A stretch of 39,386 nucleotides of DNA from contig PBJO01000005.1 of NCBI GenBank assembly GCA_002720745.1, forward strand, positions 1 through 39,386, given 5' to 3'. Source of the DNA: Balneola sp. (GTDB lineage: Bacteria > Bacteroidota > Rhodothermia > Balneolales > Balneolaceae). The position numbers were made by a program, and so were the translations under genes. How positions within the stretch are numbered: the stretch's first letter is position 1; each line of letters opens with the position of its first letter. Below are positions 250-4,403 of the stretch, one piece after another. The notes under the pieces were generated by a model. The model was not told where the DNA came from. It did no database searches and was given only the letters and a program-made list of their open reading frames with translations.

Positions 250-1749
250 TTACTTAATTAGTGTCATTTTCGTAACACGCTGATAGCCATTAAATATGAG
301 ATGTGCATAATACACACCCGATGGTAAACTTTGGGCGTTAAATGTCTGTGAATGATATCCTCTCTGCTTTAAAGTTTTCTCTAAGCTGGCTACTTTTTGT
401 CCTAATGAGTTAAATATCAGTAACTCAACCAATCCAGCCTCTGGTATAGAATATTTAAGCTGCGTGGTGGGATTAAATGGATTAGGATAATTAGGGTATA
501 ACTCAAATTGATTTAGCGCCAAATAATCTAATTGGTCCATAGCTGTACTCTCTACGTCGTAGATAGCTAAAAAACTACCGGGTATAATTCCCACGCTAAA
601 TTCATCCAAATCCTTTAGAGTTTCGGTATCAATCACCCGAACAGAGCCTGCACTCACATAATCTTTTGCATCGGCTAAATAAAGATGACCACGTGTAGGC
701 TCATAAAAGAACGAATAGTATGAACCCGTTATAATAGTTTCAGTAGTTACATCCACCTGATTTAAATCGACCCGTTTGATCCCCTCGCTTTGAAAGTAAA
801 GCAATTCGTCTGTAGGATCATAACCAAGATGAATGCCGGCTTGTTTTAGCTCCAGCTCCTTACTAACCTGCCATTGCTGACTCTGCGCATCTTTTTCTAT
901 CCGAAAAAGACCTCCTGGCCGCTGAGTGCCTTCTATTAGATTCCACTGCGCATCATAATCTCCTGCATAGCCTGTACAAACCACCCATAAATCTCCATTG
1001 TTGTCTACGACTATTTGGCCTGGACCAGAGGCTGCGACTAAGGTATCTATCACCGTATGTTGTACCGGGTCAATTACCATAATGGTTGAATCTTGCCCAA
1101 AACCATAATTACCTACAAATACTGCCTCCTGATGATAAATCATATATTCGGGGCCATCTCCCACTCCAATTTTGTTGGAAAGAACTTGCTGAGTGGTAGG
1201 ATTTATCAAATGAATCTCGTCCCCGTACAAATCTGTCACGTAGGCCACTTCAGAGCTTAATATCAACAACTGCCTCGGGCTTGCTCCTTCACGCAGTGAA
1301 ACTAGACCTTGCTGGGTAAAGGATTCAGTGTCCATTAATACAATTTGTGCTGAGTTATTAATCACGGCATAGATTTGCCCTCCATTATAATGTAGACTTT
1401 GAAGTACATCGCCTAAACCTATTCCGTTTACATTCAAAAACACACCATCCTCAATTTTTTTGGTATCCGGATTATAGCGACTAATAGTAGCATTTGAGGA
1501 ACCAAAGCCACCTTCATTACCAATGAGTATTTGCTCCAATTTAGCCCCTAATTCGACAACTGATTGTCCACTGAACTGAGCTTTATGCTGTGCATTGAGC
1601 GGTGCAGTCGTAACTGCAACAATTAGTGCAAAACCGCACAATTTGGTAGTCCCAGAAATTCCTACTCTCAGATGCTTGATTGTATGGCTAAATGCTGTTT
1701 TATGTCGTTCTGTTAGACTCATTACAAAATTCGTTAGTATTAGTTTCAT
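250..1749 (-). CDS. secreted YncE-like beta-propeller with T9SS sorting domain, possibly BtuG-like
   Basis: This is a 499-residue exported protein. A hydrophobic signal segment ends near residue 53 (TTAPLNA, then Q). Residues about 65-405 form repeated blades typical of YncE/surface-layer beta-propellers, such as YVTDLYGDEIHLINP and GPGQIVVDNNGDLWVV. From about residue 412 there is a type A type IX secretion sorting domain, with YPNYPNPFNPTT at its start and a lysine-ending tail (MTLIK). The gene lies 38 bases behind a BtuB-like receptor under a cobalamin riboswitch. In Bacteroides the seven-bladed propeller BtuG caps BtuB and captures B12, so a similar role is inferred here, with the protein delivered by T9SS instead of as a lipoprotein. 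The start is the first ATG; a second ATG ten codons in would also keep the signal peptide. Sorting domain and propeller are secure; cobalamin binding is not shown. Confidence 0.8.
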   Translation of the reverse strand: MKLILTNFVMSLTERHKTAFSHTIKHLRVGISGTTKLCGFALIVAVTTAPLNAQHKAQFSGQSVVELGAKLEQILIGNEGGFGSSNATISRYNPDTKKIEDGVFLNVNGIGLGDVLQSLHYNGGQIYAVINNSAQIVLMDTESFTQQGLVSLREGASPRQLLILSSEVAYVTDLYGDEIHLINPTTQQVLSNKIGVGDGPEYMIYHQEAVFVGNYGFGQDSTIMVIDPVQHTVIDTLVAASGPGQIVVDNNGDLWVVCTGYAGDYDAQWNLIEGTQRPGGLFRIEKDAQSQQWQVSKELELKQAGIHLGYDPTDELLYFQSEGIKRVDLNQVDVTTETIITGSYYSFFYEPTRGHLYLADAKDYVSAGSVRVIDTETLKDLDEFSVGIIPGSFLAIYDVESTAMDQLDYLALNQFELYPNYPNPFNPTTQLKYSIPEAGLVELLIFNSLGQKVASLEKTLKQRGYHSQTFNAQSLPSGVYYAHLIFNGYQRVTKMTLIK

Positions 1750-1787
1750 AGCGTTTGAATTATTTATGTTTGTTATAGTTAAATATG

Positions 1788-4034
1788 CTAGTTAACACTC
1801 ATGATTGCCCTGCTCCCACTTCCTTCACGTTTTAGTTGAATACTTAGCATGAAATGCCTACCTGGCATGGGGTAGTTTAGCACTTGCTCATAGGTTTCTG
1901 AAAAAATATTGTTTATCTCTAAGCTCCAACTTAAGTTCCACAGCAGCCGCCTAGGAATATTTCTACTAGCTCCTTTAAAATCCTTCTCGACTTGGTCTGT
2001 TCCTAAAATCCTGTCAGCTGCCCAAGGTATTTCGACACCAAAAGATGCATTCCATGTTGAATACGCAGAAAGAGGATCAAAAGGACTGGAATGATCTGCA
2101 CTGCTATATCGCTCAGCCACATATGAATTAGAAAGCATGGCCTGCAATTCTTTATACTGCACATGTATATAATGTTTAAACTGCCATTTGGGAGTGTAAC
2201 GAAGTTGCATATTTAGTGCGGGATCACCTTTGTAGCGTTCTTTATCCATGTGCGCAATCACCTGATATGCTCCACTTTTAACCACTCCACTAAACTGAGC
2301 ATGATGGAATGCTAGGGCGATATCCAATTCTCCCCCTCTAGCAGTAATTGCTTCTATATTAAGGGGCTTTGAAAGTCCCTGTTCATCCGGCAACCAACGT
2401 ATTCCATTGTTCACAGTATTCCAATAATAACTCAGCTGAACATCGGTTCTTAACTTTCCCCCATCCCAATGTAGCAGAGTCTGAGCCAACTGCAATCCAC
2501 TTTCTATCGAATAAACCTGTTCACTGCGAAGATCTGAATTCCCTAAAACCGGCCAATACAGATCATTGAATGTAGGTATGACTGAATGTTTAGCCGAGAG
2601 GAAGCGGATTCCAAGTGCGGGGCTTAACTTCGAGTTCCACCCCAACTCTCCGGACCAATTCAACCCAAAATCATCATAATAGGCTTGGTTCATATCAACT
2701 CTAAGGATATTTCTCGTTCCATACTCTCCATGGAGAGTATGCCGGTGTGAAAATGACCATCGAGAGCGTGTTACCTCATAATCTGTACTATTTACACCTG
2801 TAATTGACCACTCTACCAAACTTTGTAAATAAGCGGACTTTCCTAATCTGTTTTGGTGTTCGATACGAATAATGCTACTCCAAATATCGCTTTCACTATC
2901 AATCTCTTTATCGGGATCTTTAAAATCTAGTGCTTGCCATAGGCCAAAATGCTGTATTCTCCACTGATTCCTAATGCCCCACCTTAGCCCTTGTATCCAA
3001 CGTAAATAAGCATCGGATTGATTCGCTCTAAGAGAGGGCGATAGCTTGCTCCCCGGTATATTATTGTCTTGGGTAAAAGCCCAAATGGTGCTTTGATATT
3101 CACTTTTAGCGACAAAGGAGCGTAAGGATGAAAAAGTTCTGTTGAAAATTTTATCCCTAGAGCCTTTCAACGTCATCTTGCTTGGTTCTTTTTTAAAATT
3201 GAATAAAACTGAATGAGATTGAGAGTCATTATTCTCACGGCTATACCATTTAGGAATTATGGCCCGCTGCTCTGGGTCAAATACTCGTTTTTTAAAGTCA
3301 AAATTATTTTCGGCCGCCATACGGTACACTCTTAGGTCCCAAGATATATTATCTTTGGAAGATGCTGCATGAACCCTCGTCTGCTTTGCCCCATACTTAC
3401 CCATCGAATACTGAAGAGCTATCCTATCTCCATCAAATGTTTGCTGAAGAATATGCATCGATCCAGCTCCACTCTGACCAAATCGAGCTTGTCCTAAGCC
3501 AGGAGTGAATAATACTGCGTCAAATAAATTACTCGGTATTAAAGACAAATCCACTACGCCAAGCATAGGATGATTTAGCCCGAAACCATTCCAAACCACC
3601 TGATTTCTGGATGCTGGTAAGCCTCTTTGGGAAAGTAAAGCTAAGCTACCTGGACCGTTGGTTTGCACATAGGCTGAACTAAATTCTTGTGCAATACTTC
3701 CCATATGCGACGCAAAACGAAGTTCTAAAAGTTCCTTTGATAAACGTCCATACTGAGTTCCGAGCAGTTGAAAATCTTGGTAAGGATTCTGAGCTATGAT
3801 TTCAATTTCGGCCAAACCTATAATGGGTAAATTAGCCAAAGTGTCATGAGCTTCTATTTGCATTTCATGGGCCATTGCATGAATGTTAAGAGTAAAGGTA
3901 ATCTGTACTATTAGGAATGTCAGACCAGGAAATGTAATCAGTTCGTAATAAAAGTGATTAATAGCCCATCTAGTTGTAAGTTCATTTGCTGCGATTGAAA
4001 CGCTAAGATTAAATAAATGTGAAAATCTAACCAT
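1788..4034 (-). CDS. btuB: BtuB-like TonB-dependent outer membrane receptor
   Basis: This is a 748-residue outer-membrane receptor, probably for cobalamin or a related corrinoid. A plug domain follows the N-terminus (about residues 75-200), with the characteristic stretch RGLPASRNQVVWNGFGLNHP and then a glycine-rich GQARFGQSGAGSMHI. The rest is beta-barrel with many aromatic strands, closing with YPMPGRHFMLSIQL. Substrate assignment rests on the B12 riboswitch just upstream, not on the protein alone. The start chosen is the ATG at 4034; a GTG directly before it is the alternative. The N-terminus is odd: the hydrophobic export segment begins only near residue 35. About 12 residues follow the last barrel strand, so the protein does not end in the usual terminal aromatic residue. 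It probably forms a transcription unit with the propeller downstream. Confidence 0.82.
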   Translation of the reverse strand: MVRFSHLFNLSVSIAANELTTRWAINHFYYELITFPGLTFLIVQITFTLNIHAMAHEMQIEAHDTLANLPIIGLAEIEIIAQNPYQDFQLLGTQYGRLSKELLELRFASHMGSIAQEFSSAYVQTNGPGSLALLSQRGLPASRNQVVWNGFGLNHPMLGVVDLSLIPSNLFDAVLFTPGLGQARFGQSGAGSMHILQQTFDGDRIALQYSMGKYGAKQTRVHAASSKDNISWDLRVYRMAAENNFDFKKRVFDPEQRAIIPKWYSRENNDSQSHSVLFNFKKEPSKMTLKGSRDKIFNRTFSSLRSFVAKSEYQSTIWAFTQDNNIPGSKLSPSLRANQSDAYLRWIQGLRWGIRNQWRIQHFGLWQALDFKDPDKEIDSESDIWSSIIRIEHQNRLGKSAYLQSLVEWSITGVNSTDYEVTRSRWSFSHRHTLHGEYGTRNILRVDMNQAYYDDFGLNWSGELGWNSKLSPALGIRFLSAKHSVIPTFNDLYWPVLGNSDLRSEQVYSIESGLQLAQTLLHWDGGKLRTDVQLSYYWNTVNNGIRWLPDEQGLSKPLNIEAITARGGELDIALAFHHAQFSGVVKSGAYQVIAHMDKERYKGDPALNMQLRYTPKWQFKHYIHVQYKELQAMLSNSYVAERYSSADHSSPFDPLSAYSTWNASFGVEIPWAADRILGTDQVEKDFKGASRNIPRRLLWNLSWSLEINNIFSETYEQVLNYPMPGRHFMLSIQLKREGSGSRAIMSVN

Positions 4035-4162
4035 CACACGGTATTAACAACTAGATTTGTAGGTTCCACTATACGACTAGTTGGCAGTTAGTACTGATTA
4101 ATTAAAGTTGCCCACGGAAATTCTAGCTCCCGAAAATTTCCTGAGAAATAGATGCTAATTGC

Positions 4163-4353
4163 GTTGATGGCAGGTCTCCTGACTTTTCCACCTCGAGGCC
4201 TTCCCGTTAAGTTAATAACAGTGGCAAGATTTGCTCGTAGGATTGGTGTGAACAATTCATATTTACAATGAAGTTATTCGAATGGAATTACAGTTGCGGG
4301 TACAGCTCCGGATTTACACCGGATTCCCTTTTGATCTCAATTAAGAGTACCAT
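4163..4353 (-). promoter_or_regulatory. cobalamin (adenosylcobalamin) riboswitch
   Basis: Read on the minus strand, this leader has the conserved blocks of the cobalamin riboswitch in order: GGGAATCCGGTGTAAATCCG, then GCTGTACCCGCAACTGTAA, GCCACTG, GGGAAGGC, and the B12 box AGTCAGGAGACCTGCC (plus strand 4169-4184). It ends about 130 bases before the BtuB-like start codon. Such elements reduce expression of uptake genes when the cofactor is plentiful. I did not resolve whether control is by termination or translation. Confidence 0.95.
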
Positions 4354-4373
4354 CACTATTTCAAAGAGTACCA
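4343..4373 (-). repeat. 10-base direct repeat at the start of the riboswitch leader
   Basis: TGGTACTCTT (minus strand) occurs at 4343-4352 and again at 4364-4373, exactly 21 bases apart. The upstream copy sits directly behind the predicted -7 box and the downstream copy lies at the 5' end of the riboswitch. Confidence 0.6.
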
Positions 4374-4403
4374 GAAATATAAATGCTCCTTGAATCAATA
4401 CAA
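4374..4403 (-). promoter_or_regulatory. predicted promoter of the B12 uptake operon
   Basis: On the minus strand TTG (plus 4401-4403), a 19-base spacer and TATATTTC (plus 4374-4381) match the Bacteroidota primary-sigma consensus TTG-N19-TAnnTTTG with one mismatch. The start point would fall near 4366, just ahead of the riboswitch, which supports the call. Confidence 0.5.

Follow-up and report, generated by a model that had tools for sequence, protein, structure and literature searches.

How can the lid of a vitamin B12 transporter be brought to the cell surface and held there if it carries no lipid? The question is raised by a locus of Balneola sp. on contig PBJO01000005.1, of which positions 1 to 39,386, hereafter the window, were analysed. 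In order of transcription on the minus strand, this locus contains a cobalamin riboswitch, the gene of a BtuB-type receptor and the gene of a BtuG-type beta-propeller. In gut Bacteroidetes, BtuG is a surface lipoprotein, and nearly all of 114 homologues have a lipobox with its cysteine (Wexler et al., 2018; PMC6143338). Together with its receptor it forms a lipoprotein lid complex, in which the linker behind the lipid-bearing cysteine runs along extracellular loop 2 (EL2) and is a proposed hinge (Abellon-Ruiz et al., 2023; PMC10404256). In Bacteroides, the lid catches B12 when open and then shuts over BtuB, the lipid anchor and the linker being regarded as its hinge. In the window, the answer is probably a different one: the locus would be an uptake operon repressible by B12, and its lid a BtuG homologue that is exported through type IX secretion and not as a surface lipoprotein.

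The riboswitch (4152–4369, minus strand) forms the leader of the operon. It matches the full Rfam model RF00174 (positions 1–189) with 95.0 bits and an E-value of 1.4e-22, for a gathering threshold of 31.5, and it is the sole cobalamin riboswitch found in this genome. As the first-pass annotation had proposed, it stands ahead of a BtuB-like receptor, encoded at 1788–4037 on the same strand, and the coordinates given there, 250–4403, were correct. The propeller gene (250–1749, minus strand; 499 amino acids) adjoins the btuB-type gene under this riboswitch.

The identity of the propeller is supported by both sequence and fold. The protein scores above the cut-off of DUF5074. Its sequence matches in the Protein Data Bank (PDB) are BtuG3 and BtuG2, with E-values down to 2.2e-35 (phmmer) over residues 73–393, and a profile built from its family reaches BtuG with an E-value of 3e-63, the homology being full-length. 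In the AlphaFold2 model, residues 70–400 (550–1542, minus strand) form a seven-bladed propeller with a predicted local distance difference test score (pLDDT) mostly above 95. Foldseek searches with this model place BtuG entries at all of ranks 1 to 16. Superposition on BtuG2 (8bai_A) gives a Z-score of 40.0 with a root mean square deviation of 2.0 over 308 residues; the Z-scores are 35.5–35.7 with BtuG1 and about 30 with the best unrelated propellers. The earlier description of a YncE-like beta-propeller has to be amended in that the protein is closer to BtuG than to YncE. A plain YncE-type protein is rejected, since BtuG entries reach Z-scores of 35–40, the first E. coli YncE entry coming no higher than rank 29 in the Foldseek results. 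The suggestion that the protein is a counterpart of BtuG is supported by specific homology at both levels. The propeller is also acidic, with 45 aspartate and glutamate residues versus 18 lysines and arginines.

What sets this protein apart are its two ends. At the N-terminus, the signal peptide region (1591–1749, minus strand), delineated by inspection of the translation and comparison with relatives, has a predicted cleavage site at A53/Q54. No lipobox was found there by inspection: the hydrophobic stretch, at about residues 37–49, ends with LNA-Q, and the only early cysteine, C38, lies at the start of this stretch and not at its end. The protein thus carries neither a lipid-bearing cysteine nor a lipoprotein export signal. 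At the C-terminus, a flexible linker (residues 401–420; 490–549, minus strand; pLDDT below 50 at residues 402–415) leads to a type A sorting domain of the type IX secretion system (T9SS) (residues 421–499; 253–489, minus strand). Over residues 421–495, this domain scores 33.6 bits with TIGR04183 (cut-off 23) and 32.4 bits with the Pfam family Por_Secre_tail, PF18962 (cut-off 27), and in the AlphaFold2 model it folds into a beta domain of its own. The combination of a missing lipobox and a T9SS type A domain, noticed at first pass, is accordingly found again. A chance match is rejected, because the tail scores above both curated cut-offs and is present in all of the 40 tailed forms (see below). 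The same genome encodes SprA (1469 bits), PorU (1015 bits) and PorQ (234 bits), all above their cut-offs, as well as a PorV/PorQ-like protein beside PorU, so that the machinery for such a sorting signal is present. Since neither the window's protein nor its tailed kin has a lipobox, the protein is, judged on its sequence, a BtuG homologue and not a BtuG lipoprotein.

Is the receptor of a type that could carry such a lid? Translated from a GTG codon, it has 749 amino acids and would be mature from about residue 56. Its plug domain (PF07715; residues 100–192; 3462–3740, minus strand) is recognised with 26.5 bits for a cut-off of 23.9. Among PDB sequences, BtuB3 of B. thetaiotaomicron (8p98_A) matches best, with an E-value of 5.6e-28. 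A profile of 58 receptors from like loci reaches BtuB2 and BtuB3 with E-values of 7.5e-155 and 2.7e-153; with E. coli BtuB and siderophore receptors the values are about 1e-48 and 1e-21. The AlphaFold2 model (pLDDT 86) ranks BtuB3 of the BtuB3G3 complex (8p98_A) first, followed by BtuB2, BtuB1 and then E. coli BtuB, and its plug and beta-barrel are thus nearest to the BtuB1–3 type. With the E. coli BtuB equivalog TIGR01779, the receptor obtains 37.9 bits for a cut-off of 599.7. The loops that would face the lid were also compared. The median lengths of EL2, EL5 and EL7 to EL11 differ by at most one residue between loci with a T9SS-type and loci with a lipoprotein-type BtuG, apart from a longer EL2 in the window's clade. 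Because the medians are alike in both kinds of locus, a compensating change in the lengths of the receptor loops is rejected. As modelled, the fold of the receptor, taken with its loop lengths, is compatible with a BtuG-type lid on BtuB.

Beyond the window, the locus has many relatives. In the window's order, 48 of 50 BtuG loci have an adjoining btuB gene in the same orientation; the other two (L040 and L049) are situated at contig ends. A cobalamin riboswitch was found in 49 of these 50 genomes, mostly some 2–3 kb upstream of btuG and on the same strand, and the order riboswitch-btuB-btuG is retained in nearly every complete locus examined. Twelve tailed loci were examined outside the order, all of them with a cobalamin riboswitch. 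In a sample of the phylum, the propeller was present in 189 of 394 genomes. Judged by its named relatives, the window belongs among marine Balneolaceae.

These propellers come in two forms. In the lipoprotein form, the cysteine lies 13–26 residues (median 18) ahead of the propeller and the chain ends shortly past it, except at two loci with an extra domain. In the T9SS form, the end of the signal peptide lies a few residues ahead of the propeller in most cases (about 20 in most members of the window's own genus), and the sorting domain begins 24–33 residues (median 26) past it. When the proteins were scanned singly, the NCBIfam model TIGR04183 recognised each of the 40 tailed forms and none of the 68 lipoprotein forms. 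No protein bearing both a lipobox and a sorting domain was found among the surveyed BtuG forms. The two forms are therefore mutually exclusive in the same riboswitch-btuB-btuG locus. Furthermore, every matching genome of the window's order in the phylum sample has one BtuG match, so that the two forms are alternatives and not paralogues; in this sample of the order, the idea that a genome has a T9SS form in addition to a lipoprotein BtuG is rejected. It might also be imagined that the lipoprotein forms occur where T9SS is missing. This explanation fails because the genomes with these forms have SprA as well. SprA was detected in 127 of 128 genomes of the order (83 of the 83 with at least 90% completeness and low contamination) and in 18 of 18 other genomes tested, and one family with SprA in its genomes includes the T9SS as well as the lipoprotein form. 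A matched pair of organisms is formed by Gracilimonas mengyeensis DSM 21985 (L163), with the T9SS form, and Balneola sp. EhC07 (L170), with the lipoprotein form.

How often has one form replaced the other? In a first tree of 116 propellers, built with the sorting domain excluded, the form label needs 5 changes, and the starred branches force 4. A smaller and more careful tree needs 4 changes (bootstrap range 4–5), of which 3 are forced. The approximately unbiased (AU) test rejects one common origin for all tailed forms (p 7e-99), but does not reject a clade uniting the two tailed groups found within the window's order (p 0.107). Since the groups were defined with the first tree already in view, these p-values are guides only. 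Because the two tailed clades of the order could be one, a fair statement is that 3 to 5 switches between the lipoprotein and the T9SS forms took place, in one direction or the other. The exchange of a lipobox for a T9SS tail, proposed at first pass, is thus real and recurrent, as judged from the scans of the forms and from the trees.

Several further loci came to light in the survey. Six loci in genomes labelled Calditrichota (L165, L172, L181, L183, L189 and L197) have BtuB-BtuG pairs of the lipoprotein form; among these loci, the cobalamin riboswitch was checked in L172 only. At two loci (L105 and L108), BtuG has about 300 extra C-terminal residues, the end of which resembles, by eye, DUF4465 (the type of the B12-binding BtuJ), with no Pfam match. 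In another BtuBG locus (L118, 5593–6726), two cobalamin riboswitches of the same orientation are separated by about 700 bases. Finally, a BtuG-type propeller was seen on a contig labelled Candidatus Poribacteria (L216, 485–1381), with no adjoining BtuB in the available stretch; this contig could be mis-binned.

From these data, a mechanism may be proposed. Under B12 scarcity, the riboswitch would turn the operon on, as expected from its family. By analogy with known T9SS biology, the propeller would cross the inner membrane by Sec and then reach the T9SS translocon, SprA, with PorV-type shuttles. PorU would remove the C-terminal domain, and the new C-terminus would be either joined to a surface glycolipid or released. 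By homology with the pedal-bin complex of Bacteroides, the propeller would sit on BtuB as a lid and catch cobamides with its acidic face, the hand-over to BtuB being aided by loop EL8. The tether would thereby have shifted: formerly an N-terminal lipid-bearing cysteine with some 18 residues, it would now be placed at the C-terminal end of the propeller and keep the protein at the surface. As most T9SS forms have lost the N-terminal linker, the hinge would either be located elsewhere or the lid would be held by contacts with the barrel alone. For the relatives taken together, we lean towards the idea that the BtuG lid has been passed repeatedly between two unrelated machines of surface display, the one for lipoproteins and the one for type IX secretion, with its tether going from the N- to the C-terminus and the lengths of the docking loops of the receptor being kept.

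Three points weigh against a surface-held capture lid exported by T9SS. The first one concerns the pocket. Five aromatic residues are named for BtuG2, W194, Y239, W272, Y316 and Y335 (PMC10404256). In the window's protein, Y316 and Y335 are kept, W194 is exchanged for Tyr, and Y239 and W272 for Ala, with the caution that the column of Y239 falls in a loop where the alignment is possibly off by one. The second point concerns EL8, a loop that Bacteroides requires for growth on B12 and that there loosens the vitamin from BtuG (PMC10404256). The EL8-type motif of the window's receptor, IRWLPDEQGLSKPLNI (2355–2402, minus strand), was located by alignment with the EL8 region of BtuB2 and BtuB3. At the position of the EL8 aromatic residue of BtuB3, Tyr538, the window and most of its clade have Ser; Trp, Phe or Tyr is found in most other tailed clades and in most lipoprotein loci with a readable motif. 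The third point is that type A sorting domains can also end in release into the medium.

This last property leads to the alternative that survives best, although it is unlikely: the T9SS-sorted propeller would be shed as a free cobalamin scavenger, a kind of protein cobalophore, and dock later on BtuB without being tethered. Some T9SS type A cargo of other Bacteroidota is indeed released, and the tailed forms lose the N-terminal tether, their signal peptide ending mostly a few residues from the propeller (about 20 in most members of the window's genus). However, the lengths of the receptor loops are unchanged and receptor and propeller form a genetic pair, one to one. Because of this, and because the BtuG-BtuB complex of Bacteroides is stable (PMC10404256), release seems wasteful in open water. 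More doubtful still is a descendant of BtuG that would no longer bind cobamides with high affinity, its only role being structural, as a cap, or related to another ligand. The two named pocket aromatics that are lost, the third that became Tyr and the missing EL8 aromatic in the window's clade would fit such a protein. Against it, the pocket aromatics are equally variable among lipoprotein forms, and riboswitch control together with the neighbouring gene nrdJ keeps the tie to B12. As for a C-terminal domain that would be a chance or decayed addition to a periplasmic protein, it is highly improbable: nothing in its favour was found, and the sorting domain is intact in every one of the 40 tailed forms, over at least 3 separate switches and always without a lipobox. 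A lid exported by T9SS and held on BtuB thus stays the preferred reading.

The neighbour just mentioned, nrdJ, encodes the class II ribonucleotide reductase that depends on B12. It is the next gene in most of the loci examined in Balneolaceae relatives, whichever form they have. The window's genome has it at the end of another contig (C11), and this end overlaps the first 109 bases of the window with about 94% identity. From this overlap, nrdJ most likely follows the propeller gene at a distance of about 480 bases, as in the relatives.

In the literature searched, which covered few subscription journals and preprints, BtuG is described only as a lipoprotein; neither a T9SS-sorted BtuG nor a T9SS-sorted lid of any TonB-dependent transporter was found. 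This agrees with the first-pass view of an anchoring route not known to be described, and it does not prove priority. Wexler et al. (2018), who surveyed gut genomes only, reported no BtuG homologues outside Bacteroidetes (PMC6143338). With the present loci, BtuG-type B12 capture would extend well past gut Bacteroides, to marine Balneolaceae and to Calditrichota. Because the swap of anchors recurs in several bacterial lineages, it suggests that evolution can exchange the two surface routes and that the lid works with either of them. If so, neither the lipid anchor nor the N-terminal hinge would be essential to pedal-bin uptake of B12. Matched organisms such as G. mengyeensis DSM 21985 and Balneola sp. 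EhC07 allow the role of anchor and hinge to be tested.

Among known systems, the closest are BtuG2 and BtuG3 of Bacteroides thetaiotaomicron (8bmy, 8bai, 8okv), with which the window's propeller shares its seven blades, about 30% identity over the whole domain and a Z-score of about 40. Their complexes with the receptor are BtuB2G2 (8bmx) and BtuB3G3 (8p97, 8p98). A further shared feature is that the gene adjoins btuB under a cobalamin riboswitch. Unlike BtuG2 and BtuG3, the window's propeller has no lipobox or lipid anchor, has an additional T9SS sorting domain and shows changes at several pocket aromatics. BtuG1 (8blw, 8ptd; Z-scores 35.5–35.7) and BtuK1 (9s6c; Z-score 29.3), two other B12-binding propellers of Bacteroides, have the fold and the B12 context in common with it. 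They are more distant (about 20–22% identity) and, as far as described, are not sorted by T9SS. E. coli BtuB shares the fold of a TonB-dependent B12 receptor but has no BtuG partner, and the receptor of the window is nearer to BtuB3. Lastly, like the type A cargo of T9SS (TIGR04183, PF18962), the propeller protein combines a Sec signal peptide with a C-terminal sorting domain, in a genome encoding SprA and PorU.

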